Virus record (IMG/VR): IMGVR_UViG_3300009285_000641
Coordinates: 1 to 31,250 of that record
Length of the DNA stretch: 31,250 nucleotides
Strand: one strand, 5' to 3'
Source of the DNA: a virus
The notes beneath the pieces are model-generated. The model was not told the DNA's origin. It searched no databases and saw only the letters and a program-made list of their open reading frames with translations. Position 1 is the first letter of the stretch. Every line of letters starts with the position of its first letter. A program made the position numbers and the translations under genes. This document shows, in pieces, positions 1,319 through 31,250 of this stretch.

Positions 1319-1344
1319 GGTGGTTAGTTCCTTCCGATTCTTGT

Positions 1345-2832: not shown

Positions 2833-3203
2833 CTCATCACGGCCTTGAGTGCTGACTTGCAAATTGCTAGAGACGCTTTGTAGCTATCCATGCTATGCAG
2901 AGGCGCAATAAACTCAAGTTCGTTATTGAAAAAGTCTGTATCAGACTTATCTTCCAAAAAGCACATTCTCTCAGCGACTTCCCATGCTTGGCTAATGTAA
3001 CGACTATATTGCGGAATCTCAGAAGAATGTGCGCCATCTTCAGTAATAGCGATGGCCCGGAATGGGCCTCCGGGTAGATCATCACCAAAGACGTGATCTT
3101 TCAGAGTCCAACCCATCACATGACTAGCAATAAGTTTATCCAGTTCTTGTCCTGGCAGGAGGGCATCAATCTGTTGGGGTGATAGTTTTACACAATTTTT
3201 CAT
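2829..3203 (-). CDS. Small phage protein resembling the phage ABA-sandwich domain
   Basis: This 124-residue soluble protein has the look of the Phage_ABA_S family: an early 'ELDKLIASHVMGW' segment, a central 'YSRYISQAWEVAERM' segment and a C-terminal 'AICKSALKAV' helix. These are landmarks recalled for that family rather than searched. The family has no established biochemical role and is widespread in tailed phages. The start ATG overlaps the stop of an upstream reading frame as ATGA, and the stop overlaps the methyltransferase start in the same way, so it is translationally coupled within the leftward operon. Confidence 0.7.
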   Translation of the reverse strand: MKNCVKLSPQQIDALLPGQELDKLIASHVMGWTLKDHVFGDDLPGGPFRAIAITEDGAHSSEIPQYSRYISQAWEVAERMCFLEDKSDTDFFNNELEFIAPLHSMDSYKASLAICKSALKAVMR

Positions 3204-3439
3204 GCGTCCTCCAAGACAATGCGATAGGTCTTTATCACGCCTGACTCTTTGAGGGTATACGTCAATGGCGTGCCATCAGTTCTGAGCAATTCGCCAGTTT
3301 CAGGCATAGCCACAAACTCCACAACTGAACAGTATTTATCATCCGAGTGGTAGAGTAAGAATCCGCTTCCGACAGGTTGGCGCTTTATTCTCTCTATTTG
3401 AGTTGTGGTTGGTCTAAGTGGTCTGAGGCGTGTCGTGGC
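3200..3439 (-). CDS. Open frame without a visible start codon, hypothetical
   Basis: A 79-codon frame is open from 3439 and ends in a TGA that overlaps the next gene as ATGA, the same junction style as the real genes here. The translation reads plausibly (for example GFLLYHSDDKYCSVVEF and TLKESGVIKTYRIVLED). It has no ATG, GTG or TTG start before internal codons: the first usable ones are GTG codons about 40 residues in and an ATG that would give only about 35 residues. It overlaps the end of the preceding small gene (stop at 3414) in another frame, so a +1 frameshift, a sequencing indel or a short internally started product are all possible. Function unknown. Confidence 0.35.
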   Translation of the reverse strand, partial: ATTRLRPLRPTTTQIERIKRQPVGSGFLLYHSDDKYCSVVEFVAMPETGELLRTDGTPLTYTLKESGVIKTYRIVLEDA

Positions 3440-3605
3440 TCATAATCCCCCACTCTAGCGTTACTATGCCGGTGAATTGGTGTGGCCCATCGTGTCCGGC
3501 GGGCAGTTGGCACAGTATGTTTATCTGAACGTTGTATGGGGATGCACAACGGTCAGCTATGAACCCATTGCCTATTTCTTGCAGAGTCGAAAGTTTATCG
3601 TCCAA
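3414..3605 (-). CDS. Small hypothetical phage protein with C/H motif
   Basis: This 63-residue protein of unknown function contains Cys and His positions (RCASPY, then CQLPAGHDGPHQF) that could bind a metal; this is inferred from spacing only. A TTG start is assumed, since no ATG is available until ten codons before the end. The frame begins inside the end of the radical SAM gene (11 bp overlap), which fits the compact leftward operon. Its C terminus overlaps the start-less frame at 3200-3439, so the two may be one gene interrupted by a frameshift. Confidence 0.5.
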   Translation of the reverse strand: MDDKLSTLQEIGNGFIADRCASPYNVQINILCQLPAGHDGPHQFTGIVTLEWGIMSHDTPQTT

Positions 3606-4575
3606 GGGTCTTCATTTCCTTGAATGGCAATGCTTCATTTTTGCGTGGTTTATATTCACGAATGTCTATATTTCTCCAGAGATGCCTATTGAAATATCTG
3701 GCAAAGTCTCTGAGGAGCGAAGGCGTCCAGTCATGATTGATTTTGAATTGGTCTCTTCGCAAGGCATTGAGAGGCATGTAGGGTTGGCAGTAAGGCTCAC
3801 CGCCCCATTCTATTATCCGCTGTGTGCGATAATAGCACACTTCCATTGGCTCGTTGCCAATGAGACAATAGATCTGTTTCTTCGTAGCTGATATATCCTT
3901 CAGGATGTGCATCATTCTTTTGACTTGTTCTTCTTCGGATATGGTATCTAAAGCAAAGCGCCACGGCCCACGAAGGATTTTTTTCCACCGATGATATGTC
4001 CCATCGTCAAATGAACGCGGCTCAAACCCGCTGTTGGCGTCTATCAAGGTGGTATTTGTTTCTCGGTAGCGATTGATAATGTGTTCCTGGAAATCCACGG
4101 GGAGGTCGCTCAAGTTATTATCGCACAGGATCGGCGGCGCTGGAACAAAATCCCAGTCCAATTTGTATTCAGTTCCCTCCAGAAGAGGGACGATGCAGAA
4201 ATAACAACCTACTGAGCAGCCTCGACTCGCAAAACCCATACGATAATTGCCACGTTGATACTCAAAGCGTTGATCTAGCCCTCGGTGTGCCTTTAATCCG
4301 GTTTGTTTCTCCCACCAATTTCCGAGAGCGAATAACCCCGGCCCGCCGGCCCATACTTCTGATTGTTCCTTGATGCGATTAGCTATCTCTGCTGCGATTG
4401 TGGCATTCCACGAGAAGATGACAGAGAGACACACTAGATCGGATTGTGGCAAAAACATCCCCGGATCGCCCTCAAAGAAATGGACGGTGTATCCATTTTC
4501 TCGGAGATAGTTTCTTAATTTATGTGCTCCCAGATTATAATACCCGTGCGATACATTGACGATTGTGGCAATCAA
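3595..4575 (-). CDS. Radical SAM protein
   Basis: This 326-residue protein should reductively cleave SAM using a [4Fe-4S] cluster. The cluster motif is Cys120-x3-Cys124-x2-Cys127 in the context SRGCSVGCYFCIVP, followed by an 'LEG' segment reminiscent of the B12-binding and methylthiotransferase branches. The first ~90 residues (NVSHGYYNLGAHKLRNYL, then DLVCLSVIFSWN) look like a reduced Rossmann or cobalamin-binding-like domain, without the classical DxHxxG cobalamin motif. The start is a TTG overlapping the upstream stop as TTGA. The gene lies between a zinc-ribbon protein and small genes in an operon with DNA methyltransferases, so a role in nucleic-acid base modification is attractive. That is inference; the substrate is unknown. 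Confidence 0.85.
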   Translation of the reverse strand: MIATIVNVSHGYYNLGAHKLRNYLRENGYTVHFFEGDPGMFLPQSDLVCLSVIFSWNATIAAEIANRIKEQSEVWAGGPGLFALGNWWEKQTGLKAHRGLDQRFEYQRGNYRMGFASRGCSVGCYFCIVPLLEGTEYKLDWDFVPAPPILCDNNLSDLPVDFQEHIINRYRETNTTLIDANSGFEPRSFDDGTYHRWKKILRGPWRFALDTISEEEQVKRMMHILKDISATKKQIYCLIGNEPMEVCYYRTQRIIEWGGEPYCQPYMPLNALRRDQFKINHDWTPSLLRDFARYFNRHLWRNIDIREYKPRKNEALPFKEMKTLGR

Positions 4576-4805
4576 GGCACGGCTCTTTCTGGAATGCCCA
4601 AGCGTGGCTTGCGAGGCAATGGCTTGTCAATGCCGACAGTGCCCCATTTACGAAATAATATTGGCTCCCACCCGTTTTTTAGTAAATCAGCCAATGGTCT
4701 GGAGGACAGAAGAGGCCCATCGTATTTCAGCAGTTTGCCACAATAGGCGCAGTATTCCAGGTCTTTACCCATGAATTCCGTGTGGCACTTCGCGCAAGTA
4801 TACAT
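4572..4805 (-). CDS. Small zinc-ribbon protein
   Basis: This 77-residue protein starts with a clear zinc ribbon: CAKC, a short linker, then CAYCG, four cysteines in two CxxC pairs within the first 23 residues. The rest (about 24-77) is basic and proline-rich with no recognised domain. The ATG follows a GGATAAGGAT stretch, and the TGA stop overlaps the radical SAM start codon, so the two are probably co-translated. It may be a nucleic-acid or protein-binding adaptor. The about 110-bp stretch upstream (4806-4917) holds no further gene. Confidence 0.65.
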   Translation of the reverse strand: MYTCAKCHTEFMGKDLEYCAYCGKLLKYDGPLLSSRPLADLLKNGWEPILFRKWGTVGIDKPLPRKPRLGIPERAVP

Positions 4806-4917
4806 GGTGTTTATCCTTATCCTGAAAGAAATTGGCGATGATACATGACGATGCTGCCCGCCAAATTATGTGCTAGGGAGAAGATAGGCCCGTATACCCC
4901 GTGGAAGATATAGAGCT

Positions 4918-5169
4918 TTAGAGTCGTGATTGTTTTGCTTTCTTCTTTTCTTTCTTCACCTGACTATTCTTCACAGCCCGCGCTAGTGAAATTTCACGAC
5001 CTCGCTCTGGCAGGTCATCATCGCAATTCGGGTTGCGCTTTGCCACTCCCACGGAAATCACTCGTTTGTTGTTGAGTAGCAAGCATATTGTGAAATTGCC
5101 GTCTTGGTAGAAAACTGATTTATTTCTCTCAATTGCCTTTTCGACTTGCTCGTGCAACTTGGCATTCAT
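4918..5169 (-). CDS. Small hypothetical phage protein, basic C terminus
   Basis: This 83-residue protein of unknown function has a predicted alpha/beta body (KLHEQVEKAIERN, FTICLLLNNKRVISVGVAKRN) and a conserved-looking 'DLPERGREISLARAV' segment before a lysine-rich tail that could touch nucleic acid. The ATG at 5169 is preferred over one at 5190: it has a strong GAAAGGAAAG site, and the promoter at 5193-5221 would start transcription near 5186, inside the longer version. It is the first gene after that promoter and probably leads the leftward methyltransferase and radical SAM operon. Confidence 0.6.
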   Translation of the reverse strand: MNAKLHEQVEKAIERNKSVFYQDGNFTICLLLNNKRVISVGVAKRNPNCDDDLPERGREISLARAVKNSQVKKEKKKAKQSRL

Positions 5170-5192
5170 GGTCTTTCCTTTCTGTTTCATCT

Positions 5193-5221
5193 ATTTTACC
5201 GAATATTACTGGGTGTGGCAA
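5193..5221 (-). promoter_or_regulatory. Sigma70-type promoter for the leftward methyltransferase operon
   Basis: On the minus strand a TTGCCA -35 box (5221-5216) and a TAAAAT -10 box (5198-5193) are separated by exactly 17 bp. Transcription would begin near 5186, giving a short leader with the Shine-Dalgarno site of the gene starting at 5169. Confidence 0.6.
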
Positions 5222-5230
5222 TATGTAGTG

Positions 5231-5788
5231 TTATTTTGGCGCGGACAAGGTAATTGATCCTTCAATCTGATCCCCGTATACATCCCATCTCGGACGGTGA
5301 TAACGAGCGAATAACTCAAGGTAATTCATGTTGGGATATAGACGCTCTATTTTAGCGTATTGCTCATCTGGCTTGCGGGAATGGTCGCGGATAGATGACA
5401 TGATAAGTGCTTGAACATTGTGGGTTGCCACAGGCATTGTTCCGCGAACAGCCAAGAGAGAAGGTTCAGTATTGGAGCGCGTATAGTAACCCATACCGAT
5501 ATGAGTTCCCATACTGTTCTCGTTGAGTTTAACCCATACCCAAGCCACAGTCCTATAGGTAAATCCCCACGCAGTTATGACGGTGAAGGCATCTTTAAGA
5601 TTGGGCCATGTAGCCCATAAAAACAAAGTACAGTTCTCCGTGATAACATTTGCAATGGGCATGGCGCAAATGTCTTCAACGGACATGAGGTTATATTTGT
5701 GGCTGGCATGGCGATCTGACTTCTCTGCATTCCACACGGAAAATGTCCACGGTGGGTCTGCTAGAATTACATCATAAAGTTTAGTCAT
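5231..5788 (-). CDS. MT-A70 family adenine-N6 DNA methyltransferase
   Basis: This 185-residue enzyme has the MT-A70 catalytic motif DPPW at residues 11-14 (YDVILADPPWTF), followed by the family-like segments ENCTLFLWAT, AWGFTYRTVAWVW and, near the end, YLELFARYHRPRWDVYGDQ. It should methylate adenine N6 in DNA; RNA is possible from the family but less likely in a phage. The start is the ATG at 5788 overlapping the upstream stop as ATGA; a TTG five codons upstream is the alternative. It is the third DNA methyltransferase in the first 6 kb and, like the others, has no partner nuclease. Confidence 0.92.
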   Translation of the reverse strand: MTKLYDVILADPPWTFSVWNAEKSDRHASHKYNLMSVEDICAMPIANVITENCTLFLWATWPNLKDAFTVITAWGFTYRTVAWVWVKLNENSMGTHIGMGYYTRSNTEPSLLAVRGTMPVATHNVQALIMSSIRDHSRKPDEQYAKIERLYPNMNYLELFARYHRPRWDVYGDQIEGSITLSAPK

Positions 5789-5934
5789 GCCTTTTTGCCA
5801 CAATCTTCTGGGGGTATGTAATCTCGTAGAAATTCATCATCGGCCCGACTAGCTACAATGCACAAAGACATGATGAGCAGAATGGATATTGTGGCAAAAA
5901 GGATGCAGATTGAGGAGACAATTGCGATTGTCAT
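5785..5934 (-). CDS. Small single-pass membrane protein
   Basis: This 49-residue protein is mostly one hydrophobic helix (about residues 3-28: IAIVSSICILFATISILLIM...) followed by a short charged tail with a single cysteine. The ATG lies one base after the stop of the preceding gene. A longer in-frame extension starting near 6108 is rejected because it is read out of frame across a well-supported gene. The function is unknown. It is too short to call a spanin or holin, although its topology would fit a small envelope-active peptide. Confidence 0.6.
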   Translation of the reverse strand: MTIAIVSSICILFATISILLIMSLCIVASRADDEFLRDYIPPEDCGKKA

Positions 5935-18614: not shown

Positions 18615-18703
18615 TTGGGGAGGAGCAGATACAGAATAACAAGCGATTTTGTTTCTGTTATTAGACAGTATTGGGGACTTTTCGGGATTGACAAACAAAG
18701 GAC

Positions 18704-18732
18704 TTGACAGAAAGTAATAATTGACATAAACT
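18704..18732 (+). promoter_or_regulatory. Promoter of leader A (capsid genes)
   Basis: TTGACA (18704-18709), a 17-bp spacer and TAAACT (18727-18732). The expected start falls at the beginning of the conserved box at 18738. The 90 bp upstream, after the methyltransferase gene, hold no gene. Confidence 0.65.
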
Positions 18733-18737
18733 AAACT

Positions 18738-18769
18738 ACAACTGCATACTTTGCGCGACTCTGTTCGCC
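18738..18769 (+). promoter_or_regulatory. Conserved 5' leader box, copy A
   Basis: This 32-nt segment is 29/32 identical to 25190-25221 and starts 6 nt after the -10 box in both copies, so it should form the first bases of the transcript. Its GCG-C-GAC / GTTCGC part (18753-18768) can pair into a 6-bp hairpin with one bulge. That hairpin uses the same bases as the 5' arm of the following terminator, a classic antiterminator arrangement. The trigger is unknown. Confidence 0.7.
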
Positions 18770-18811
18770 TCTTGTTGCATCTTTGATGCCTAACAAGGGG
18801 CGTTTTGTTTT
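18766..18811 (+). terminator. Intrinsic terminator inside leader A
   Basis: An 11-bp stem CGCCTCTTGTT/AACAAGGGGCG (18766-18776 with 18792-18802) stacks on a 5-bp GCATC/GATGC stem with a TTT loop and a 2-nt bulge, followed by TTTTGTTTT. It stands before the start of the protease gene, so it should reduce read-through unless prevented. Confidence 0.8.
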
Positions 18812-18836
18812 AACTCGGTGCGGGTCATATATACAC

Positions 18837-20213
18837 ATGCCTTGGGAGATAAGAAAGAAAGACAGTGAATTCTGTGTTCATAAGAGGGGGAACGACACAC
18901 CTCTCAAATGCTATCCCACGCGGGGGAAGGCGGTGGAGTACCTGCAAGCCCTGTATGCCAATGAGGACAATAAGATGGCGGTTGATGTAGAAACTGTCAA
19001 AGCTAAGACAAAGAAGATTGGGGCGAATAGCTATCCTGCCAGCGACTTTCTCGTGGTTGAAGACTTGGATATGCCCTCAAAGTGGCATTTGCAAGTCAAG
19101 AAACACGGAAAGATGGACGCTGGACTCATGGGAGGCGCTCACGCAGCGTTGATGTCGCCGGGGGGACACCGGGGTAACAAGTACGCAGGCCCGGACAAGG
19201 AAGCGGCCATTGCCAAGTTGAAGAAGATGTACAAGCAAGCGGGCATGACGTGGCCCGAAGACAAGAAGAAGGACAGTAGCAAGAAGTCTCTCAATCTCAT
19301 GGAGCTTGAGAGCAAAGTCCACATAGCGATCAAGGAAAAGCTCATGGAAGCCGGTGGATACAAAGACAGTTGGGATATGCCCTACTGCCCGACCGAGGTC
19401 TTCATGGACTTTGCCATCGTGAAGACGGACAACGGCCTCTATCAAGTCCCATACGAAATTGATGCGGAGTCCTATGAAGTCACATTGGGAGAGCCGATCA
19501 AGGTCAAGGTTGAGTACGTTCCAGACGACGCCGAACCGGAAGATGACATGGATGCAGACGGCGCATTGGATGAGAAATTCAAGGAGATGGTGAAGAAGTC
19601 GTCTGAATTGATGACTATCAAATCCATTGGCCCAGACAGGGTGGGTGGCTACGCGGTGTTGTGGGGAGACGAGTCTCGCAAAGACTTGACGGGCGAATGG
19701 TTCACCCCCAAGACTGAGGAACTTACGGCGATCTTTGATGTGGTAGGCAAACTCCCGTTCATGTACCACCACGGCCTAGATGAAACGGTCAAGACGCATG
19801 TGAGCGGGGTGGTAGACACGTTGAAACCGGACAGTGTTGGACTGTGGTACGAGGCTCAACTTAAGAAGGCTGACGAATACGACGAGCAAGTAAAGAAGTT
19901 GATTGAGGCTAAGAAGCTTAAGACTTCTACCCAGACGTTTCCTCTCGCTCGGCGTGTAAGCGTCAAGGGGGAGATTACCCGGTGGCCGATTGCCGAGATT
20001 ACCGGCACGCCCACCCCGGCAGAATACCGGATGCAACCGATTGAAACACTGAAGTCGGCATATCAAGCCATCGGCTGTAAGGATGATGACTTTGCGTGCA
20101 TGTTGAAGAAATACGGCGAGGCGGCAGAAGGCGAAGGCGACAATCAAGGCGCTGAGAAGGCGCGATTGATGCTGGAGCTTGAAGCGGCCCGGCTCTCTTT
20201 ATTGGAAATCTAA
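18837..20213 (+). CDS. HK97-type prohead protease with N-terminal extension
   Basis: This 458-residue protein would mature the capsid. The C-terminal third is an S78-like protease: GGYAVLWGDESRKDLTGEWF, then a catalytic-type histidine in MYHHG (His311/312), then KTSTQTFP (Ser364 candidate) and ITRWPIAEITGTPTPAEY. Upstream are a short domain beginning MPWEIRKKDSEFCV with YLQALYANE, often seen at the start of such phage proteins, and a segment 'MSPGGHRGNKYAGPDKEAAIAKLKKMYK'. The start at 18837 is chosen because earlier ATGs lie inside the terminator hairpin and MPWE is the familiar N terminus. No strong Shine-Dalgarno site is visible, which is unusual for a structural gene. Confidence 0.8.
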   Translation: MPWEIRKKDSEFCVHKRGNDTPLKCYPTRGKAVEYLQALYANEDNKMAVDVETVKAKTKKIGANSYPASDFLVVEDLDMPSKWHLQVKKHGKMDAGLMGGAHAALMSPGGHRGNKYAGPDKEAAIAKLKKMYKQAGMTWPEDKKKDSSKKSLNLMELESKVHIAIKEKLMEAGGYKDSWDMPYCPTEVFMDFAIVKTDNGLYQVPYEIDAESYEVTLGEPIKVKVEYVPDDAEPEDDMDADGALDEKFKEMVKKSSELMTIKSIGPDRVGGYAVLWGDESRKDLTGEWFTPKTEELTAIFDVVGKLPFMYHHGLDETVKTHVSGVVDTLKPDSVGLWYEAQLKKADEYDEQVKKLIEAKKLKTSTQTFPLARRVSVKGEITRWPIAEITGTPTPAEYRMQPIETLKSAYQAIGCKDDDFACMLKKYGEAAEGEGDNQGAEKARLMLELEAARLSLLEI

Positions 20214-20228
20214 CAAGGAGTAATAGAC

Positions 20229-21722
20229 ATGAAAGACGAATTGGAGGCCCTGCGCGTATCCATCAAGGCCCTCATTGACGAGACGGACAAGTTGATCTCG
20301 GACGGCAAACTTGAAGAGGCGAAAGTCAAACAAGTGGAGATCAAGAAACTGCAAGAGCAGGCCCAAGTGCTGAAGGCACAGGCGGAGGCCAAAGCCGCTG
20401 AAGATAAGATGTCTGGCGAACTCAAGGCGCAACAGCTTGAGAAGGAAAATGCCGACCTCAAGGCTAAACTCAAAGACCCGGTGCGCTTGGAAGGTCTGGC
20501 GGGCGATATATCTGCGCTTGAAACAGATACCAAGGGCGAAGCGCAAAAAGCCACCTATCAGACTCGCTATGGGACGATTGATGCAGGCGTGAAGGCCGTG
20601 CTTTCCGACCTATACGGAAGCGAATTCAACTACAACCAGGCCCGCGATGAGCAAATGAAGGCGTTTGTGAAGTATATCCGGCTGGGCGAGAATCGCTTGA
20701 CCGCCAAAGAAATCGAGATGCTGACTCCTAAGTGGAACAACATCATCTTGCGCCCGGATGTCATCAAGTCGGAACTGGAAGCGGGACGGAGCGTAGCCGA
20801 AATCAAGGCTACGCTGGTAGAAGGCACACTGGACTTGGGCGGGTACACTGTCCCTGAGGACTACCGTGTGAATATTATCTCCCGCTTGGTCGGTAATACC
20901 GTGGTACGAAAACGCGCTCGTGTGGTTACGACTACCCGCGATGCGATTGAGTGGCCCAAGTTGGAAGGTGGCAACACCATCTACACCTCAGCGGTGCGCG
21001 TGACGTGGGTGCAGGAACAGCCTGCCAGCGCGACAGCGGCTTCAACTAACCCGACCTTCGGTCTGTACCGCATCCCAGTGCATACGGTAATGGCGCGCAC
21101 GGACTTCTCACGCAACCTCTTGGAAGACTCGGCCTTCAACCTGCAAGAAACCATTGCGGGCCTGTTTGCCGAAGCCATGGCGGTTGACGAGGACAATCAA
21201 TTCTTGACCGGCACGGGCGGGGGTACGCCTCGCGGTGTGTTGGCTGGACGCTCTGGGGCCGAACAAACACCTGAAACGGGCGTGACTGCGGTGGTTTCCG
21301 GGAATGCTTCAGCAGTAACGGCTGATGGGTTGCTTGACTTGGTGTATGCCGTGGCACAGCAATATCGCAATAGCGCGGCCTTCGCCGTGTCCCGCACGAC
21401 TCAGCGCGATCTTCGCAAACTGAAGGACGGCAACGGGCGCTATATGTGGCAGGATAGCATTCAGCAAGGACAGCCTCCGGCGCTGTTGGGCTATGCGGTT
21501 GACGAGTCGGAGTCCATGCCGACTATCGCGGCCAATGCCTATCCCATCATCTTCGGAAGCTGGCTTGGGTATCTGGTAGCGGATCGCGTGGGCATGAGCG
21601 TTGAGCGCGTAACGGACTCTACCCTAGTCGGCCAAAACCGCGTGGCTCTGTTTGCGCGTCGGCGTTTGGGCGGACAGGTAATTGAGCCGTGGCGTTTCGC
21701 GGCCCAGCAAATGTCAGTTTGA
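20229..21722 (+). CDS. HK97-type major capsid protein
   Basis: This 497-residue protein has a highly charged coiled-coil N terminus (about 1-85: KDELEALRVSIKALIDETDKL..., KKLQEQAQVLKAQAEAKAAEDK), the scaffold-like delta domain removed by the protease encoded upstream. The capsid fold follows, with landmarks GGYTVPEDYRVNIISRL, ARTDFSRNLLEDSAF, AVDEDNQFLTGTG and the C-terminal QNRVALFARRRLGGQVIEPWRF. AAGGAG precedes the ATG. It is the main virion shell subunit. A 10-bp hairpin follows at 21743-21769. Confidence 0.92.
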   Translation: MKDELEALRVSIKALIDETDKLISDGKLEEAKVKQVEIKKLQEQAQVLKAQAEAKAAEDKMSGELKAQQLEKENADLKAKLKDPVRLEGLAGDISALETDTKGEAQKATYQTRYGTIDAGVKAVLSDLYGSEFNYNQARDEQMKAFVKYIRLGENRLTAKEIEMLTPKWNNIILRPDVIKSELEAGRSVAEIKATLVEGTLDLGGYTVPEDYRVNIISRLVGNTVVRKRARVVTTTRDAIEWPKLEGGNTIYTSAVRVTWVQEQPASATAASTNPTFGLYRIPVHTVMARTDFSRNLLEDSAFNLQETIAGLFAEAMAVDEDNQFLTGTGGGTPRGVLAGRSGAEQTPETGVTAVVSGNASAVTADGLLDLVYAVAQQYRNSAAFAVSRTTQRDLRKLKDGNGRYMWQDSIQQGQPPALLGYAVDESESMPTIAANAYPIIFGSWLGYLVADRVGMSVERVTDSTLVGQNRVALFARRRLGGQVIEPWRFAAQQMSV

Positions 21723-22795: not shown

Positions 22796-22838
22796 GGCGC
22801 GGGGTTGGGGTTTCACCCTGGCCTCGCGCCTTTGTTTT
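22796..22838 (+). terminator. Rightward intrinsic terminator
   Basis: GGCGCGGGG pairs with CCTCGCGCC (one G-T pair), with further GGG/CCC pairing inside, followed by TTTGTTTT. It would end transcripts from the capsid genes or from the promoter just upstream. Confidence 0.75.
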
Positions 22839-22846
22839 GAGTGACA

Positions 22847-22876
22847 ATAAAATAAAAAGCGCCCAATTAAGGGCGC
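22847..22876 (-). terminator. Leftward intrinsic terminator
   Basis: On the minus strand GCGCCC-TTAATT-GGGCGC is followed by TTTTTATTTTATT, a textbook intrinsic terminator. No leftward gene lies nearby, so it may block antisense transcription into the capsid genes. Confidence 0.65.
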
Positions 22877-22901: not shown

Positions 22902-23243
22902 TTGTCATACGGCGACACATACTACGGTATCGTTACAAGCGGGTCTACGGCGACCTCTGCTGCTACGGCGCATTTGCTCTTCGGGGCCTATCAGGGATTG
23001 AGCACACTGGGGCAGAATGAGATCGTCAACATCCAGTTGATAGCGACGGCCAATGACGTTCGTGTTTGGAACAGCACCGTGACCAACAACACGGGCTTAC
23101 GCTTGACGCAATCGGCCTCGGCTTTTGATCTGCCACCCATGCGCGCAGGGGAGGCCAGCGGGCTTCACATGGTCAGAGACGGTTCTGGCAATCCTACAGT
23201 GTTGTGGACTGTCTGGAGCCGGAATCCGGGGACGACAAAATGA
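22902..23243 (+). CDS. Structural protein paralogue 1 (SYGD family pair)
   Basis: This 113-residue protein starts at TTG, four bases after a strong GGAGGCAATT site. It shares order and motifs with the next gene: SYGDxxY/F, LLFGAYQGLSxLGQNE, VNIQL, NNTGxRL, DLPPMRxGxAS and PTVLWTVWxR. A beta-rich virion protein is likely from composition and position among structural genes; the function is unknown. Its stop overlaps the start of its paralogue as ATGA, the mark of a tandem duplication. Confidence 0.65.
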   Translation: MSYGDTYYGIVTSGSTATSAATAHLLFGAYQGLSTLGQNEIVNIQLIATANDVRVWNSTVTNNTGLRLTQSASAFDLPPMRAGEASGLHMVRDGSGNPTVLWTVWSRNPGTTK

Positions 23244-23578
23244 GCTACGGGGACTCGTTTTTCCATGCGGTTATCAGCGGCTCTACAAGCGGGAGTGAGA
23301 TACCCAATCTTCTGTTTGGGAGCTACCAGGGGTTGAGTGACTTGGGGCAGAATGAGGTGGTCAACATTCAGTTATGCACCACGACTGCCGAGGCCAGGGT
23401 GTGGGACACAACGACTACAAACAATACAGGGTTTCGTCTCAATCAGGCAGCTTCCATTATTGATCTGCCTCCTATGCGAGTCGGGGCGGCCAGCCTTATG
23501 AAGATCATGCGCGAGACGGCGACCAGCCCGACGGTGCTGTGGACGGTGTGGCGCAGAGTTTCGGGAGCTATGCAGTAG
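23240..23578 (+). CDS. Structural protein paralogue 2 (SYGD family pair)
   Basis: This 112-residue protein aligns with the preceding one over its full length (SYGDSFFHAVISGST, LLFGSYQGLSDLGQNEVVNIQL, NNTGFRLNQAAS, DLPPMRVGAAS, TVLWTVWRR). The ATG at 23240, overlapping the upstream stop, gives the homologous N terminus; a GTG 12 codons earlier is rejected for that reason. The two copies have diverged clearly, so both are probably kept by selection, perhaps as two subunits of one virion part. Confidence 0.65.
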   Translation: MSYGDSFFHAVISGSTSGSEIPNLLFGSYQGLSDLGQNEVVNIQLCTTTAEARVWDTTTTNNTGFRLNQAASIIDLPPMRVGAASLMKIMRETATSPTVLWTVWRRVSGAMQ

Positions 23579-24116: not shown

Positions 24117-25160
24117 ATGGCAAAAAAGGGTTGCTCTAAGTGCGGGAATGAATTTGAAGCAAGAGGCAACAGATCAAAATACTGCTCTATCAAATGCCAA
24201 TATGGAATTGGTGTTTGTAGAACATGCGGAAAAGAGTTCGTTAAGAAATCAAATACTACTGGAGATTACTGTTCTAGTAGATGTTGGTATAACTCTGAAG
24301 ACTTCAAGGATGTTGAATACAAGAAATGTTCTCATTGTGGAGTAAGTAAGCCCCATACCGAATTCCCATATTCTGGTGGAAAGGGAGAACTTCATGGTTG
24401 GTGCAAAGATTGTCATAGTCAATCCTACGAGGAAAATCAGTCCAAGAAAAGGCAATCCGCCATAAAGTACGCAATAGGTGATTTCCCGGAGCGAATCAAG
24501 AAATATAGATTAGAGCAAGGAATGACACAACAGGAATTCGGTAAAAAAGTCGGAATTGGCGCTACCCAGATTAGACACTGGGAAAAGGGTACAAGTCTTC
24601 CGCATCCCAAGAAAGTAAAATTCATATTTGATCTATTTGGATGGGAAGTTCCAGACGAATTAAATGAAAGACAAGATTTTAGATTGCCACTTGGAATTGG
24701 AATATGCCCATATTGTGGAAACTCATTTCCAATCTATAGAACCAAAACGGTATTTTGTTCCAGGATTTGTAACAACAGATACCATAGCAGTGAGCGAAGT
24801 TCAACCTGGCGTGGCGGGAAATATGAGTCTGGGTGTGGCTATATCAAAGTCAAGATGCCAGACCATCCCAACTCAGATACCAGTGGCTATATCCCAGAGC
24901 ATAGATTGATAATGGAGAGAATTTTGGGTAGACATTTACTTCTTGGCGAAAAGGTTCATCACAAGAACGGAATTCGTGATGATAATCGTCCAGAAAATCT
25001 TGAGTTGTGGACTACGGATCACAAAGACCCTCCAGGAGTGCGTGTTTCAGATAAGATAGCAGATGATATACTCTCTCAACCTGAAATTTCAGAATTGCCA
25101 GAAGAAATCAGAGGAAGAATAAAAGACGCATTGTATCGGGTTGCAAACAAACAGAGTTGA
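24117..25160 (+). CDS. HNH endonuclease with zinc fingers and HTH domain
   Basis: This 347-residue protein has several Cys clusters in its first 110 residues (CSKCG ... YCSIKC, CRTCG ... YCSSRC, CSHCG ... CKDC). An XRE-like helix-turn-helix follows (about 130-175: IKKYRLEQGMTQQEFGKKVGIGATQIRHWEKG), another zinc finger (CPYCG ... FCSRIC) and an HNH nuclease (HRLIMERILGRHLLLGEKVHHKNGIRDDNRPENLELW, about 262-300). This layout is typical of mobile phage HNH nucleases. AAGGAG precedes the ATG, and a weak TTGCGT-17-CATACT promoter lies at 24067-24095. Its sequence is visibly more A+T-rich than the structural genes around it, so it probably inserted recently. Confidence 0.88.
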   Translation: MAKKGCSKCGNEFEARGNRSKYCSIKCQYGIGVCRTCGKEFVKKSNTTGDYCSSRCWYNSEDFKDVEYKKCSHCGVSKPHTEFPYSGGKGELHGWCKDCHSQSYEENQSKKRQSAIKYAIGDFPERIKKYRLEQGMTQQEFGKKVGIGATQIRHWEKGTSLPHPKKVKFIFDLFGWEVPDELNERQDFRLPLGIGICPYCGNSFPIYRTKTVFCSRICNNRYHSSERSSTWRGGKYESGCGYIKVKMPDHPNSDTSGYIPEHRLIMERILGRHLLLGEKVHHKNGIRDDNRPENLELWTTDHKDPPGVRVSDKIADDILSQPEISELPEEIRGRIKDALYRVANKQS

Positions 25161-25184
25161 CAATAAGCGTTAGGGTGATAGAAT
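25157..25184 (+). promoter_or_regulatory. Promoter of leader B (modification cluster)
   Basis: TTGACA (25157-25162, overlapping the end of the HNH gene), a 16-bp spacer and TAGAAT (25179-25184). The start is expected at the conserved box at 25190, at the same spacing as in leader A. Confidence 0.7.
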
Positions 25185-25189
25185 AATAC

Positions 25190-25221
25190 ACAACTGAATA
25201 TTTTGCGCGACTTTGTTCGCC
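25190..25221 (+). promoter_or_regulatory. Conserved 5' leader box, copy B
   Basis: Second copy of the 32-nt box at 18738-18769, differing at 3 positions (box positions 8, 12 and 24). It can form the same bulged 6-bp hairpin, which competes for the CGC that begins the terminator stem. It precedes the genes from 25282 onward. Confidence 0.7.
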
Positions 25222-25268
25222 TTATGGATGTCTGCCAATGGCAGCTAATCTATGAGGCGTTGTTTTTT
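25218..25268 (+). terminator. Intrinsic terminator inside leader B
   Basis: A 12-bp stem (25218-25229 with 25248-25259, including two G-T pairs) stacks on a CTGCC/GGCAG stem with an AAT loop, followed by TTGTTTTTT. Apart from the outer CGCC/GGCG, the stem sequence differs from copy A while pairing is kept, as expected for a structure under selection. Confidence 0.8.
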
Positions 25269-25281
25269 AACGAGGAACATT

Positions 25282-25602
25282 ATGAGCGACACGCAAGACT
25301 ATGCACAAATGACGTTGGCAGAGCTAAACAGCTTGTCGGCCAAACTCTATGATGACTACTACACCTTGAAAGACAAGATCAAGCGTGTGGACAGGTTACG
25401 CAACGCCAAGATGCAAGAGGAACAAGCACGCAGGGCATTGGAGGCGGCACAGTCGCAATTAGATGAGGCGCAGAAAGCGCAAGCGCCAGAGATCAAAATC
25501 GTTCCCGACTCTATTGAGTCAGATGAGGCCGTGCAGACTCAGATTCCCAAGTGGCGGGAATGGATAGCGAGGATATGCAAGAAGCAGGCTATAAAAAGTT
25601 AA
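25282..25602 (+). CDS. Coiled-coil protein, first gene after leader B
   Basis: This 106-residue protein is mostly helical and charged (TLAELNSLSAKLYDDYYTLKDKIKRVDRLRNAKMQEEQARRALEAAQSQLDEAQKAQ), consistent with a coiled coil, with a basic tail (WREWIARICKKQAIKS). A GAGGAAC site precedes the ATG at 25282; an earlier ATG lies inside the terminator hairpin and is rejected. No family was recognised. It may be a small virion or scaffold component, or belong to the modification cluster behind it. Confidence 0.6.
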   Translation: MSDTQDYAQMTLAELNSLSAKLYDDYYTLKDKIKRVDRLRNAKMQEEQARRALEAAQSQLDEAQKAQAPEIKIVPDSIESDEAVQTQIPKWREWIARICKKQAIKS

Positions 25603-25612
25603 TTGAATTCCT

Positions 25613-26527
25613 ATGTCTCAATTGAGTATCCTCGTACCAGCAGGTGGGGAGACATTTCTATCAAAGACAGTGGACGATCTCTTTACTAAAGCTGATGGCG
25701 AGATTGAAGTTGTCGTCGCATTAGATGGTGTGTGGCCTAATCCGACCCTAATGGATCGGCCCGGTCTTCGCATCATTCATTTTGGCGCACATCGGGGAAT
25801 GCGGGCTTGTCTTAATGCCGCTGCTGCTGTGGCAACAGGCGAGTGGATAATGAAGCTTGATGCCCATTGTATGGTTGCTGAGGGCTTTGATGAGGTTCTT
25901 AAACGTGATTGCGCCGACAACTGGGTAATGATCCCACGTCGTTACAGTCTAGATGCGGAGAATTGGAAGATTGAGGAGAACGGTAGAGGGCCAAAAGATT
26001 ATCACTATCTTAGTTGCCCAGAATGGAGTATCCGTGAACGTGATGATTACTCTATGCACGGGGTAGAGTGGAAAGAAAGAACACGGGAACGACACAACAA
26101 GCCAGAATATGATATTGACGAGACAATGAGTTGGCAAGGCAGTTGTTGGTTCATGTCTCGTAAACATTGGGACTGGTTGGGTGGACTATCAGAGTTTGGT
26201 TATGGCACATTTGCTCAAGAGCCACAAGAGATTGGAAACAAGACATGGCTAGGAGGGGGGAAATTGATGTGCAATAAGAAGACGTGGTACGCACATCTCC
26301 ACAAAGGAAAGAGGTATGCTCATTTGTGGCGCATGTATCAAGTGGTTCAACAAGAGATTGCAACGGGTCACGAATGGTCTGCAAGATACTGGATGGGCAA
26401 TCAGTGGAAAGAACGTGTGCATGATTTGGAATGGCTTATAGACCGTTTCTCGCCTGTTCCAACGTGGACACCCCATTGGAAAGAACTGTATGTCGAAAGT
26501 GTCAGTCGTCATCCCATCGCGCAATGA
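25613..26527 (+). CDS. GT-A family glycosyltransferase (paralogue 1)
   Basis: This 304-residue protein has a family 2-like GT-A fold: nucleotide-sugar binding start 'LSILVPAGGETFLSKTVDDLF', 'EVVVALDGVWPNP', and the metal site 'IMKLDAHCMVAEGFDEVL'. The DxH with following cysteine replaces the usual DxD, as in GT27 polypeptide GalNAc-transferases. Acceptor-side landmarks follow (WQGSCWFMSRKHWDWLGGL, FAQEPQEIGNKTWLGGGKLMCN, WYAHLHKG). It should transfer a sugar to a phage or host acceptor, which is not identifiable. There is no clear Shine-Dalgarno site, and the gene follows the coiled-coil gene by 10 bp. It overlaps its paralogue by 38 bp. Confidence 0.85.
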   Translation: MSQLSILVPAGGETFLSKTVDDLFTKADGEIEVVVALDGVWPNPTLMDRPGLRIIHFGAHRGMRACLNAAAAVATGEWIMKLDAHCMVAEGFDEVLKRDCADNWVMIPRRYSLDAENWKIEENGRGPKDYHYLSCPEWSIRERDDYSMHGVEWKERTRERHNKPEYDIDETMSWQGSCWFMSRKHWDWLGGLSEFGYGTFAQEPQEIGNKTWLGGGKLMCNKKTWYAHLHKGKRYAHLWRMYQVVQQEIATGHEWSARYWMGNQWKERVHDLEWLIDRFSPVPTWTPHWKELYVESVSRHPIAQ

Positions 26528-27407
26528 AGTATACGAGATCGCGCCGGGTGTAACCGTCCTTCAACGCATGGTTCAAGACCTCTACGAAAAAGCAACAGGA
26601 GAATTCGAGGTCATCGTTGCTTTTGACGGCCCCCCATATCAGCAGTTCCCAGATTATCCTAACCTGACACGTTTAGAGTTGCCCCAACTAGGTCTCAAGC
26701 CTTGCGTCAATGAGGCCGCACATATAGCAACAGGCAAGTACCTTTGCAAATTCGATTCACACTGTATGGTCAGTAAGAGTTTTGATGAGGTTCTTCAGGA
26801 ACACATGGAAGACAATTGGCTTATCACGCCACGTTTCTATGTACTGGATGCGGAGGAGTGGAAGTGGCAGGATGAGCGGTTCTATGATTACTTTTTCTTG
26901 GATTGTCCACTGACCGATAGAGTGCAATATCGATTCAAGGCAGGGGGACATTGGCCACAACGCACTAAGGAGCGAATGCACATTGGCCCCCTAGATGAAA
27001 CTATGGTGATGCACGGGTCTTGTTGGTTCTTATCCCGCGATTACTTTTTGAATTGTCTGGGTGGGATGTCATCTATCGGGTATGACTCGTTTGGCATGGA
27101 ACCGGCTGAACTCTGCTTGAAAACTTGGTTGGGGCCATGGAATGGCAAAGTCTTTGTGCGTAAAGATGCTTGGTTTGCACATATGCACAAAGGTGGCCAA
27201 CGACCTCGGGGTTATAACTTAAGCAAGGAACGCATTTGGAACTCCTACGCCTGGACAGCAAATTATTGGATGTCCAATAGTTGGCCAGAGCGTGCGCATG
27301 ATTTGGAATGGCTAGTGGACAAATTCATGCCGATTCCAAGTTGGCCTAAAAATTGGAGTGAGTTGCAAGCGCAACATGAGGCTGAGCGACAAACAGAAAC
27401 GATGTGA
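26490..27407 (+). CDS. GT-A family glycosyltransferase (paralogue 2)
   Basis: This 305-residue paralogue of the preceding enzyme shares the block order: VSVVIPSRNEVYEI, EFEVIVAFDGPPYQ, 'LCKFDSHCMVSKSFDEVLQEH' with the DxHC metal site, 'VLDAEEWKW', MHGSCWFLSRDYFLNCLGGM, and PAELCLKTWLGPWNGKVFV ... WFAHMHKGG. GGAAAG precedes its ATG, which lies inside the end of paralogue 1. Two adjacent, diverged copies suggest successive sugar additions or two acceptors. Its stop overlaps the next GTG start. Confidence 0.85.
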   Translation: MSKVSVVIPSRNEVYEIAPGVTVLQRMVQDLYEKATGEFEVIVAFDGPPYQQFPDYPNLTRLELPQLGLKPCVNEAAHIATGKYLCKFDSHCMVSKSFDEVLQEHMEDNWLITPRFYVLDAEEWKWQDERFYDYFFLDCPLTDRVQYRFKAGGHWPQRTKERMHIGPLDETMVMHGSCWFLSRDYFLNCLGGMSSIGYDSFGMEPAELCLKTWLGPWNGKVFVRKDAWFAHMHKGGQRPRGYNLSKERIWNSYAWTANYWMSNSWPERAHDLEWLVDKFMPIPSWPKNWSELQAQHEAERQTETM

Positions 27408-27892
27408 TTATAGGCCACGGTGACATTGCCAGTGTATTGGTTGACAGACCTGACAGACTATTTTTTGCCTCAGGTGTCTCCAATAGTTCTGAGGTGCGAG
27501 AGTCTGAATACAGACGCGAAATTGATCTTCTAATGATGCAAGAACGAACAGCGCACCTTGTGTATTTCGGTTCTTTATGTATTTTCTATTCTGAAACTCG
27601 CTATGCCATGCACAAGCAACAAATGGAGTCAATGGTTAAGGCGTTGTTTGCACGCTATACCATTATTCGATTGGGCAATATAACTTGGGGAACAAACTTT
27701 CATACGCTCATCAATCACTTACGAGAAATGAAACGCAGAGGACAACCATTAGATATTCAGGATGTTTATCGGTACATCGTGGATGAGGAAGAGTTACGAT
27801 ATTGGTTGTCCCTCATCCCGGAATGGAGTTGTGAACTCAATATACCCGGACGCCGAATGAAGGTTGCGCAGATCGTCAAGGAATTTGTATGA
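27404..27892 (+). CDS. Short SDR / NAD-dependent epimerase-like protein
   Basis: This 162-residue protein looks like a reduced sugar epimerase/dehydratase: 'RPDRLFFASGVSNSSE', 'HLVYFGSLCIFYSETRYAMHKQQMESMVKA' containing the SDR-type Tyr-x3-Lys (Tyr-Ala-Met-His-Lys), and 'YTIIRLGNITWGTN'. The classical N-terminal GxxGxxG nucleotide motif is poor (IGHGDIASVL), and the protein is about half the usual length, so the reaction is uncertain. The start is GTG overlapping the previous stop. Its place between glycosyltransferases and methyltransferases suggests work on a nucleotide sugar. Confidence 0.65.
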   Translation: MIIGHGDIASVLVDRPDRLFFASGVSNSSEVRESEYRREIDLLMMQERTAHLVYFGSLCIFYSETRYAMHKQQMESMVKALFARYTIIRLGNITWGTNFHTLINHLREMKRRGQPLDIQDVYRYIVDEEELRYWLSLIPEWSCELNIPGRRMKVAQIVKEFV

Positions 27893-28389
27893 AACTCTCT
27901 GCGAGATATGGCACGCATTTGTTGGCGCTCATGCGAGCAGTGTACAAAACAAGGGGTGATGTTCTGGAGTTAGGTATTGGGCCATTCAGCACACCGATTT
28001 TACATGAGATGTGCGTCTCGCGATGCTTGGTATCTATAGATAATAGCATGGAATTTTATGAATGGGCCAAGAAATACCAAACAGAATTTCACGAGATTGA
28101 ATTTGTGAATAACTGGGACGAGGCTGATATTGAGAAGCAATGGGATGTTGTGCTAGTGGATCACTCACCGTCTGAAAGGCGCGTGACTGAGATTAAGAAA
28201 TTATCGAGGCTTGCGCGGTATATCGTGGCCCATGATGCTAATGGTCGGTACGATGACTTTTATCATTACAGCACTATTTATCCGCTATTCAAATACAAGT
28301 ATGTTTTCAGCGCCGTTGAGCCAAGCACAGTTATATTGAGCAACTTTGTTGACTTGGGAAGTTTTTGGAGCAGACGTGAACAAAGATGA
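27889..28389 (+). CDS. Class I SAM methyltransferase-like protein A
   Basis: This 166-residue protein has a Rossmann methyltransferase start, 'DVLELGIGPFSTPILHEM' (motif I about 25-33), 'CLVSIDNSMEFYEWAKK' (acidic strand 2), and 'QWDVVLVDHSPSERRVTEI'. 'ARYIVAHDANGRYDDF' ends the core. The family acts on small molecules or sugars; the substrate is unknown. It overlaps the gene before it as ATGA and is overlapped by the next methyltransferase. Confidence 0.7.
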   Translation: MKLSARYGTHLLALMRAVYKTRGDVLELGIGPFSTPILHEMCVSRCLVSIDNSMEFYEWAKKYQTEFHEIEFVNNWDEADIEKQWDVVLVDHSPSERRVTEIKKLSRLARYIVAHDANGRYDDFYHYSTIYPLFKYKYVFSAVEPSTVILSNFVDLGSFWSRREQR

Positions 28390-28996
28390 AACGCTAGAGT
28401 TTATTAGAAACAAATTCAATCTGGACTTGTCTGCACGCACGCCTATTGAGTTCCGTTTGAGCCGTCACGGTGGACTAACTTCTCTCTTTTGTGAGTTGGG
28501 ATATACAGCGGGGGCTGAAATTGGCGTTGAGCAAGGAAAATTCTCTGCGGAGATTTGTCGTGACAATCTCGGCGTCAAACTCTACTGCATTGACCCATGG
28601 CAAACATATACACGGTACATTGACGAAGTTAGCCAAGACAAATTAGACGGATACCATGCTGAGGCTATAGAACGCCTTGCACCCTATGATGTGACGATCA
28701 TTCGTAAAACCAGCATGGAGGCCGTGAAAGATTTTGAGCCAAGCTCGCTCGACTTCGTGTTTATAGACGGCAACCACGACTTTCGCTATGTAGTCAATGA
28801 CATTATCTATTGGGCGGATGTCGTGCGAATAGGGGGGATCGTTGCGGGCCATGATTACAAAAACGAGAACAAGAATCGTCGCATTCCGTTCCACGTCGTG
28901 CAGGCCATAAATGCCTACACGGATTCATATCACATCCGACCCTGGTTTGTGATAAGAGGCGACAAGGCTTCTAGTTGGATGTGGGTAAAGATATAA
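28376..28996 (+). CDS. Class I SAM methyltransferase B (Methyltransf_24-like)
   Basis: This 206-residue protein has 'GAEIGVEQGKFSAEIC' (motif I), 'KLYCIDPWQTY', 'SSLDFVFIDGNHDFRYVVNDIIYWADVVRIGGIVAGHDY', the pattern of the Methyltransf_24 type often found in glycan clusters. The GTG at 28376 is chosen because GGAG lies 5 bp before it; a TTG ten codons upstream is the alternative. It is probably a sugar methyltransferase acting with the glycosyltransferases. Its 3' end overlaps a leftward gene by 26 bp. Confidence 0.8.
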   Translation: MNKDETLEFIRNKFNLDLSARTPIEFRLSRHGGLTSLFCELGYTAGAEIGVEQGKFSAEICRDNLGVKLYCIDPWQTYTRYIDEVSQDKLDGYHAEAIERLAPYDVTIIRKTSMEAVKDFEPSSLDFVFIDGNHDFRYVVNDIIYWADVVRIGGIVAGHDYKNENKNRRIPFHVVQAINAYTDSYHIRPWFVIRGDKASSWMWVKI

Positions 28997-29249: not shown

Positions 29250-29595
29250 GGCGGAAAGTGTAGCGCAAAGCATGTTACCTGTCAATCTTGTATCTCTTCC
29301 AGCCTGTTGTCTTGACTTAGATATTTTGTTAGAAGACATTATCTTCCCAGAGCGGATGGATAGCGATGGGAGGGAATTTTTTTCCGCACACGAGTTGGAT
29401 TCCGTGACACTCCGTAAGCTGAGAAAAGGAGCGATCAATCTGGGTGGTGGAATGGTGAAGATAAAACATCGTTGCGCACAATTGTTGGATGACGGGAGAT
29501 GTGGAATATACGAGACTCGCCCAAAGATTTGCCGTGATTTTGATTGTACTACACGGCACGATTGTGCCTGTCAGGGCAGGGGGAAACTCCCATGA
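29239..29595 (+). CDS. YkgJ-type cysteine-cluster protein
   Basis: This 118-residue protein has the C-terminal pattern of the YkgJ/UPF0153 family: 'CAQLLDDGRCGIYETRPKICRDFDC', followed by further cysteines (HDCACQGRG), plus an N-terminal 'PACCLDLDILL'. The family is thought to bind zinc or an iron-sulfur cluster; its role is unclear. The ATG at 29239 has AAGG 7 bp upstream; a start at 29140 would run through the Tad2-like gene and is less likely. It belongs to the rightward modification cluster and overlaps the next glycosyltransferase as ATGA. Confidence 0.75.
   Translation: MSVMAESVAQSMLPVNLVSLPACCLDLDILLEDIIFPERMDSDGREFFSAHELDSVTLRKLRKGAINLGGGMVKIKHRCAQLLDDGRCGIYETRPKICRDFDCTTRHDCACQGRGKLP
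29257..29285 (-). promoter_or_regulatory. Promoter of the Tad2-like gene
   Basis: On the minus strand TTGACA (29285-29280), a 17-bp spacer and TACACT (29262-29257). Seven bases separate the -10 box from the ATG at 29249, so the start site would coincide with the start codon. It lies inside the divergent YkgJ-like gene. Confidence 0.6.
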
Positions 29596-31250
29596 CAGAA
29601 TTAAGCATTCTCATACCAGCACGCAATGAGCAATTCCTTAAACGGACGATTGAGGACATTTTGGCGCACACCAAAGAGGATACTGAAATTATTGCTGTAT
29701 TGGATGGGGTGTGGGCCGAACCCGCTATCCCAGACCATCCACGGGTGACACTTATCTATCATCCCCAGAGTATTGGTCAACGTGCAGCAACTAACGAAGC
29801 GGCACGTGTCTCAACCGCTAAGTACATAATGAAATGTGATGCCCATTGTAGCTTTGATGATGCGTTTGACATGAAACTTATAGATGCCTATGAATCTGGA
29901 GAACTTGGGTCAGATGTTACGACAGTGCCGAGAATGTTCAACTTGCACGCTTTTGACTGGGTATGTGAGTGCGGTGAGCGAACGTATCAAGGGCCACATC
30001 CCGGAGTGTGTTCAAAGTGTGGTGGTCAACAGTCTGAAATGGATATTCTATGGCGTGCTAAACCATCGCCTACAACTGATGCTATGCGTTTTGACCACGA
30101 ACTCCACTTCCAGTATTTCGGGGAGTTTAAGAAGAGGCCAGAGGGAAGGGGCGATATTACTGAGACGATGAGTCTATTGGGTGCATGTTGGATGATGCGC
30201 CGTGAACGCTTTTGGGAACTTGGGGGAATGGACGAGGCGCATGGGAGTTGGGGACAGATGGGAACGGAGATTGCATGTAAATCCTGGCTCTCTGGTGGGC
30301 AACTAGTATGCAATAAGCGCACATGGTTTGCGCATCTGTTTCGCACGCAACCTGGGTTTGGATTTCCATATCCTAATCCCGGCATAGAAAGAGCCAGAGA
30401 ACGGTCAAGGTATCTGTGGTTTGGAAATAACTGGTCTGGGCAAGTACGCCCGTTGTCTTGGCTCATTGAGAAATTTGCGCCACTTCCGGGTTGGCATGAT
30501 CCCATCGGCGCTGAGGCATTGGCTAGAGTCAATGCGGGTAGTAAAACTTTCAATCCCAAACATCGTTCTACGAATAACGTTGTATCTATACCTAGTGTCT
30601 CCAGGTCAATTGATAAACTCACCCCAACCAAAGGGTTTGTATTCTACACTGATAATCGCTTGGATGAATACATTGCGCGGACTGTACGCCATCAACTAAC
30701 TGCTTGTTGCAATGGATATGACTTGGTAAGTGTATCGCTCAAGCCTCTTGATTTCGGGCGCAACATTACTCTTCAAGCTGAGCGCGGGCCACTCACGATG
30801 TTTCGTCAAATCCTAGCCGGATTGGAGGCAAGCACAGCGGATGTAGTATTTTTAGTTGAACATGATGTTCTATACCACCCATCCCATTTCAATTTTATTC
30901 CAAAACACCCAAGTATATTCTATTACAACAGAAATAACTGGAAAGTTGATTCCATTACTGGTCGCGCCCTGTTTTTTATATGTGACCAGACGCTTGGTTT
31001 GTGCGCTTACCGCTCCTTGCTTCTGGAGCACTATCGCGCACGTGTGGAACGCGTTAAGCGCGAAGGTCATTTTGATCGTTCAATTGGTTTTGAGCCCGGT
31101 ACACATCACAGGCCACGCGGCATTGATGATCATCATGCAGAGAGTTGGATGTCAGAGGTTCCCAACATAGATATTCGACACGGTGGGAACTTAACGCGGA
31201 GCCGTTGGCGACAAGACCAGTTCCGCAATCAGAAGTACTGCCAAGGTTGG
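29592..31250 (+). CDS. Two-domain glycosyltransferase, truncated by window edge
   Basis: The frame is open for 553 codons to the last base, so the C terminus is missing. Residues about 1-320 are a third GT-A enzyme: LSILIPARNEQFLKRTIEDIL, EIIAVLDGVWAEP, 'IMKCDAHCSFDDAFD' (DxHC), 'LGACWMMRRERFWELGGMDE', 'WGQMGTEIACKSW'. A zinc ribbon (CECGERTYQGPHPGVCSKCG, about 119-140) is inserted, absent from the two paralogues. From about residue 358 a second domain starts at 'GFVFYTDNRLDEYIARTVRHQL' with 'VVFLVEHDVLYHPSHF', 'GLCAYRSLLLEHYRARVERV', and 'PNIDIRHGGNLTRSRW'; its EHD could be a metal site, and it resembles a glycosyltransferase-like domain found in polysaccharide clusters. ATGA overlap marks the start. 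Confidence 0.82.
   Translation, partial: MTELSILIPARNEQFLKRTIEDILAHTKEDTEIIAVLDGVWAEPAIPDHPRVTLIYHPQSIGQRAATNEAARVSTAKYIMKCDAHCSFDDAFDMKLIDAYESGELGSDVTTVPRMFNLHAFDWVCECGERTYQGPHPGVCSKCGGQQSEMDILWRAKPSPTTDAMRFDHELHFQYFGEFKKRPEGRGDITETMSLLGACWMMRRERFWELGGMDEAHGSWGQMGTEIACKSWLSGGQLVCNKRTWFAHLFRTQPGFGFPYPNPGIERARERSRYLWFGNNWSGQVRPLSWLIEKFAPLPGWHDPIGAEALARVNAGSKTFNPKHRSTNNVVSIPSVSRSIDKLTPTKGFVFYTDNRLDEYIARTVRHQLTACCNGYDLVSVSLKPLDFGRNITLQAERGPLTMFRQILAGLEASTADVVFLVEHDVLYHPSHFNFIPKHPSIFYYNRNNWKVDSITGRALFFICDQTLGLCAYRSLLLEHYRARVERVKREGHFDRSIGFEPGTHHRPRGIDDHHAESWMSEVPNIDIRHGGNLTRSRWRQDQFRNQKYCQGW

Follow-up and report, generated by a model that had tools for sequence, protein, structure and literature searches.

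Two copies of a promoter, box and terminator element form a candidate gate ahead of late operons in an uncultured tailed phage

In several antitermination systems, a strong promoter comes first and an intrinsic terminator lies between it and the regulated genes. The lambdoid PR' - tR' units that depend on Q (phages lambda and 21) and the AlpA system of Pseudomonas are built in this way, and by default give a short RNA. Q proteins are diverse. In the targets of the ANTAR proteins EutV, NasR and AmiR, and in the RAT sites of BglG and SacY, a small hairpin, often with a loop of six nucleotides, lies immediately ahead of the 5' arm of the terminator and overlaps it; in the case of EutV, the hairpin is common to several leaders of one regulon. 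As set out in PMC3369931, ANTAR targets come as two tandem hairpins, with A as the first and G as the fourth base of the loop. The put RNA of phage HK022 (PMC9378689) is a structure of ~70 nt with two stem-loops, located close behind a phage promoter, which affects termination and reads through later terminators unaided.

The window analysed here is an entire IMG/VR virus record (IMGVR_UViG_3300009285_000641, 31,250 bases), which is possibly a partial genome. It contains two elements, A (18704-18811) and B (25157-25268), in each of which a sigma70-type promoter leads into a box of 33 nt and then into an intrinsic terminator. The features of the two elements and of the genes around them are as follows.

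18663-18703, + strand: upstream part of element A, carrying an extra TTGACA (sequence and local alignment)
18704-18732, + strand: promoter A, TTGACA at 18704, 17 nt, TAAACT at 18727-18732 (consensus match)
18738-18770, + strand: box A, 33 nt, 30 of 33 bases identical to box B
18755-18768, + strand: mini-hairpin SL1 of A, stem GCGA/UCGC, loop CUCUGU (sequence and fold)
18766-18811, + strand: intrinsic terminator A, stem 18766-18802 (-21.2 kcal/mol), then a tail to 18811 (strict scan)
18837-20213, + strand: prohead protease gene behind A (Peptidase_S78 match on the longer frame 18783-20213)
20229-21722, + strand: major capsid protein gene (phrog_10, 3.7e-64)
24117-25160, + strand: gene for an HNH endonuclease with a helix-turn-helix domain, ending inside the -35 of B
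25124-25156, + strand: upstream part of element B, resembling 18663-18699 of copy A and overlapping the last HNH codons (local alignment)
25157-25184, + strand: promoter B, TTGACA at 25157-25162, 16-nt spacer, extended -10 TGATAGAAT (consensus match only)
25190-25222, + strand: box B, 33 nt, putatively the first transcribed bases
25207-25220, + strand: mini-hairpin SL1 of B, stem GCGA/UCGC, loop CUUUGU, the 3' arm sharing 3 nt with the terminator
25218-25268, + strand: intrinsic terminator B, stem 25218-25259 (-24.5 kcal/mol), T-rich tail 25260-25268 (strict scan)
25282-25602, + strand: first gene behind B, ATG at 25282 with AGGA ahead of it, 106 amino acids (sequence)
25613-28996, + strand: modification cluster, with glycosyltransferase-2 genes at 25613-26527 and 26490-27407, two genes that match no family and a methyltransferase gene at 28346-28996
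29544-31250, + strand: third glycosyltransferase-2 gene (family match)

The start codon of the protease gene, ATG 18837, was picked by alignment with the related locus L004, in place of the longer frame listed for it. The product of the first gene behind B has no Pfam or PHROG match and no relative was found for it in viral contigs. The glycosylation cluster that an earlier sequence-only reading had placed behind B, together with a putative coiled-coil gene, is borne out by profile matches to three glycosyltransferase-2 genes and a methyltransferase gene. The same reading was also right in letting B start directly where the HNH gene ends, a gene that it took for a putative insertion and whose stop codon TGA (25158-25160) sits within the TTGACA of the -35. 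Between A and B, past the capsid-region genes, strong terminator-like hairpins are located at 22796-22876, one on each strand. Two small neighbouring frames have a common 67-nt stretch (22972-23038 and 23307-23373, 76% identity), suggestive of a gene duplicated in tandem. On the - strand, 59-5803 contains DNA methyltransferase genes (59-1318, 1345-2862 and 5231-5803) and a radical SAM gene (3595-4575).

In both elements, the -10 is separated from the box by 5 nt and from the terminator stem by 33 nt. The -10 hexamer of promoter B, TAGAAT (25179-25184), is preceded by TGA, and transcription of B would start near 25190. For promoter A there is an alternative, formed by TTGACA at 18721 and CATACT at 18745-18750. 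Each box contains the mini-hairpin SL1, whose bases are partly common to the terminator and which the sequence-only reading had overlooked; a second mini-hairpin is predicted in A only, not in B. From the end of the terminator tail to the start codon, 25 nt are left in A and 13 nt in B. This leaves no room for another promoter, so that the promoter must act through the terminator. A strict scan of the window finds A and B as its only two promoter-then-terminator sites. The order of the parts and the 5-nt gap are those described in the sequence-only reading, and the near-identical box, with the equal geometry, lends good support to the common regulation of two late modules that it proposed.

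The locus thus resembles the lambda Q and AlpA systems in its sigma70 promoter and intrinsic terminator before late genes, and a short default RNA would be expected here as well. It differs from them in that more than one operon per genome appears to be gated and in the overlap of the mini-hairpin with the terminator. That overlap, with the 5' arm of the terminator, is shared with the ANTAR targets and the BglG/SacY RAT sites, and as for EutV the hairpin is common to different leaders. In contrast to the ANTAR rule, the loops CUCUGU and CUUUGU have neither A at position 1 nor G at position 4, B has a single hairpin and not a tandem pair, and the genes behind are phage late genes. Compared with put, which is likewise a structured RNA close behind a phage promoter, the hairpin here has only 4 bp and shares its bases with the terminator.

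The homology between A and B continues upstream of the -35, from 18663 in A and 25124 in B, into the coding end of the HNH gene. The score of this local alignment was reached by 4 of 5000 shuffles and by none of 4344 other windows. Between the -35 and the box, 22 of 36 columns match (19.9 +/- 1.6 in shuffles), and the two copies show no clear conservation of their -35/-10 region. Past the box, the terminators match in 30 of 49 columns, with 25.3 in shuffles. A and B have the look of a ~140-nt duplicate that has since diverged, and the simplest story from these alignments is that the HNH gene runs into the 5' part of duplicate B. In PHROGs, the best match to the HNH protein stops at residue 315 of 347, which is compatible with an HNH tail borrowed from the leader. 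The transposable regulatory cassette suggested by the sequence-only reading did not find support: a PHROGs scan of 37 window proteins gave no transposase, repeats of at least 20 nt at the cassette ends were not seen in the window, and the window holds no third copy of the element, the two copies present each preceding a late gene set.

A search of IMG/VR with the exact core of the box gave a single match, the near-identical contig L003, which is identical over the stretch compared by eye. As the box sequence could not be traced beyond L003, the anatomy was followed instead, in the best 80 of 282 loci matching the protease; many of these records are fragments. Close relatives (L003-L068) were divided from an outgroup (L069-L116) by the E-value of the protease search, a division of our own choice. 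Near-duplicates sharing a 30-mer were dropped, as were L005, L050, L055, L069 and L116, which have too little upstream DNA. Among these best 80 loci, 13 of the 19 distinct close relatives carry a strong terminator immediately ahead of the protease gene, which speaks for a gate (L003, L004, L008, L009, L043, L046, L047, L048, L051, L053, L059, L061 and L064). Here L003 stands for window copy A, L009 is counted with its leader visible, and a hit inside a gene in L057 is not counted. The other six (L007, L052, L056, L057, L067 and L068) have no leader terminator, which speaks against a gate. Ahead of the terminator, 9 of the 13 relatives have a promoter matching the consensus in at least 9 of 12 positions. 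Also against a gate, no promoter scoring 8 of 12 is present in the stretch searched in L008, L053, L059 and L064 (4 of the 14 leaders, with B). The 46 usable outgroup loci fall into 6 distinct clusters, a small control, with no protease-leader terminator save a weak and doubtful one in L112 (-14.1). Before the capsid gene, none of seven loci tested has a terminator of -14 or better, the best being -11.1, in the window. The leader terminators are too varied in length and sequence for a covariance model. In genome contigs, neither the capsid nor the protease search yielded a usable prophage; the capsid alignment gave none, and the protease had one weak match, in a Deltaproteobacteria MAG contig (L145).

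The mini-hairpin was compared in 14 leaders, namely those of the 13 relatives (including L003 for A) and that of B. It was defined as a hairpin whose loop of 4-9 nt is closed by 4 bp or more and which abuts or overlaps the 5' arm of the terminator; this definition was framed after the leaders had been inspected, and the controls were given the same freedom. SL1 is present in 12 of the 14 leaders and at 29 of 260 other terminators of the same records (Fisher 2e-9), in favour of a gate. The terminator of L053 is not among the 273 reported by the strict scan, and the leader of L054 was used as a stand-in; if L053 is counted as lacking SL1, the Fisher value becomes 5e-8. In shuffled flanks, an SL1-like hairpin occurs in 9-12%. 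The stems vary in sequence while pairing is kept (GCGA/UCGC, GCGC/GCGC, GCAU/AUGC, GCGU/ACGC, ACAG/CUGU). The overlap with the terminator is at least 3 nt in 9 of the 12, taking the strict-scan terminator start for B, and the loop begins with C in 11 of the 12, taking ACAG/CUGU for L047, where the scan offers another stem. B, L048 and L046 have the loop CUUUGU in common. By the strict test, L051 and L059 lack SL1, as do the leaders of both tail operons found in larger related records, which counts against a gate. Folding with SL1 forced costs 2.2-9.7 kcal/mol in nine of ten leaders and nothing in L008; in A and L004, this moves the rest of the terminator stem away from the U-tract by 3-4 pairs. 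SL1 is much less stable than the terminator fold and cannot antiterminate without help, a further point against a gate. A box resembling 'AAYYGAATA' is seen by eye ahead of SL1 in B, L051, L043, L061, L064 and one tail leader.

Strong promoter-terminator pairs were defined by a promoter of at least 10 of 12 and a terminator of -15 kcal/mol or better, and their expected number was calculated assuming independent placement. On the + strand of the window there are three pairings at two sites (0.13 expected), and on the - strand there are none (0.04 expected). The 105-kb record G001 has four (0.46 expected), and the - strand of the 100-kb record G003 has two pairings at one site (0.12 expected). 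These excesses argue for a gate. Against it, the G001 pair at 18232 falls inside an open frame, not ahead of a gene, and the 116-kb record G005 has no strong pair, its protease-leader promoter scoring only 9 of 12. In G001 and G003, two of the three ~100-kb records scanned, a second promoter, leader and terminator heads the tail operon. The first genes of the two tail operons are homologous (43% identity), and the G001 operon includes a tape measure gene (phrog_3779, 5.8e-21); the G003 tail-operon promoter scores 9 of 12 only. G005 has neither a second gate of this kind nor a homologue of the first gene of the tail operons. The phage-wide rule that the sequence-only reading had considered thus holds in part. 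The promoter and terminator anatomy recurs at the equivalent protease/capsid position of relatives and before tail operons, but the box sequence appears to be confined to this phage, and glycosylation clusters do not follow the rule. A glycosyltransferase search gave 31 loci, which were included in the promoter-terminator scan and of which none is among the gated sites listed there; the glycosyltransferase gene of L004 is preceded by an ordinary terminator, with no gated leader.

Two further sites of this kind are seen in G001. At 65872-65960 on the + strand (L130:6472-6560), a promoter, leader and terminator are located ahead of an HNH/homing endonuclease gene. When the 3' arm of the terminator is omitted, the 5' end of this leader is predicted to pair with the terminator loop over ~18 bp (-34 kcal/mol, z -5.6), and the leader may be an alternative-structure switch. 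At G001:54479 (+ strand), a gene stands directly behind a promoter-like site and a terminator, and its product appears HNH endonuclease-like by eye.

Searches for a matching factor or RNA family gave the following. The Q protein families PF03589 and PF06530 each have no match in six records, which may be fragments (G000 lay outside this search). The ANTAR domain is matched in none of seven records, and equally in none of the control genomes. CAT_RBD, the RNA-binding domain of BglG and SacY, is found in none of the seven records and in 4 of 14 controls; this search concerns phage-encoded proteins, and a host protein is possible. The profile searches with Antiterm, Phage_antitermQ, NusG and CAT_RBD came back empty, which weighs against a gate, and Sigma70_r4 has two matches, both below the cut-off. 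Rfam covariance models give no match up to E 5 in the window and none up to E 1 in seven related loci. The element is not described in the titles or abstracts of the open-access literature among the matches listed. By analogy, the layout would work like lambda-Q or ANTAR/BglG antitermination; these tests do not support its membership in any of the classes.

On balance, we lean towards the element being a conditional promoter-proximal terminator that gates late operons, whatever the kind of gate. The host RNA polymerase would start at the sigma70-type promoter and by default stop ~75-80 nt further on, giving a short RNA. The late genes would probably be kept shut until a factor lets transcription through. 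Late in infection, such a factor, from the phage or the host, would recognise the common initial region and the polymerase would pass the terminator, turning on the protease/capsid operon behind A and the modification operon behind B together. The most likely docking site for such a factor would be SL1. It would form first and remove the bottom pairs of the terminator stem beside the U-tract, and since it takes these pairs, a factor holding it would disable the terminator. A more tentative version, possible though rather doubtful, is that of one RNA-level switch for the head, tail and surface-modification operons of this phage lineage, in which a phage antiterminator that has no relation to Q, N, put, ANTAR or BglG holds the 4-bp mini-hairpin sharing the foot of the terminator and opens all of them together.

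A gate could also work by lambda-Q-type processive antitermination, with a DNA-bound protein loading onto the polymerase at a sigma-dependent pause, the box then being a pause element and not an RNA hairpin. We regard this as unlikely; it is one of the forms covered by the gate reading, so that its probability is contained in that of the gate. The order of promoter, initial transcribed element, terminator and late genes is that of lambdoid PR' and of AlpA, as given in PMC6606751 and PMC9371919, respectively. The box of copy A contains CATACT with TG before it, and within 110 nt of the 14 leaders there are 14 extra copies of TTGACA against a background of 0.043 per 110 nt, with 6 of the 14 leaders lacking any. 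However, the best -10-like elements of the initial transcribed region, the candidate pause elements, score 3-5 of 6, no better than shuffles in any of eight leaders (P 0.16-0.95); the modest match of the -35/-10 regions of A and B, where a Q-binding element common to the late promoters would lie, and the lack of a Q family match in the six records also speak against it, and the sharing of terminator bases by SL1 is left unexplained. The TTGACA repeats themselves are found at 18663-18732 of the window and in the leaders of L004, L043, L046 and L047, often as TTGACATAA; A contains three, 16 and 17 nt apart.

Three further explanations were weighed. Terminators are common at operon borders, and those of A and B differ in sequence, as they might if the terminator simply blocked upstream read-through or tuned a strong promoter, with no regulation. 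Such constitutive attenuation or insulation seems quite unlikely to us, given that an insulator is expected before the promoter and not behind it, and that it accounts neither for the kept box nor for the hairpin sharing terminator bases. The short terminated RNA could instead be the product, in which case A and B would be two copies of a small-RNA gene of ~75-80 nt with the box at its 5' end as the seed. Having its own promoter and a strong terminator, and keeping the box while the terminator sequences differ, would suit a small RNA, but in the leaders inspected it is placed immediately ahead of a start codon with no space for another promoter, and in relatives the box sequence is not kept although its position is; we hold this to be improbable. 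Finally, the perfect 4+4 inverted repeat GCGA-N6-TCGC is also a palindrome in DNA and could be an operator, close behind the start, that serves a repressor or a road-block. L004 carries a longer perfect palindrome, GTTACACTATGTAGTGTAAC (L004:649-668), across the -10 of its protease promoter, itself a candidate operator. An operator would have no reason to abut or share terminator bases in 12 of 14 leaders with varying stems, which makes this explanation highly improbable for the box.

The timing of late genes in uncultured tailed phages is mostly undescribed. A lineage that gates its late operons by promoter-proximal terminators, as the conditional-terminator reading proposes here, would be a concrete place to seek a new class of antiterminator.
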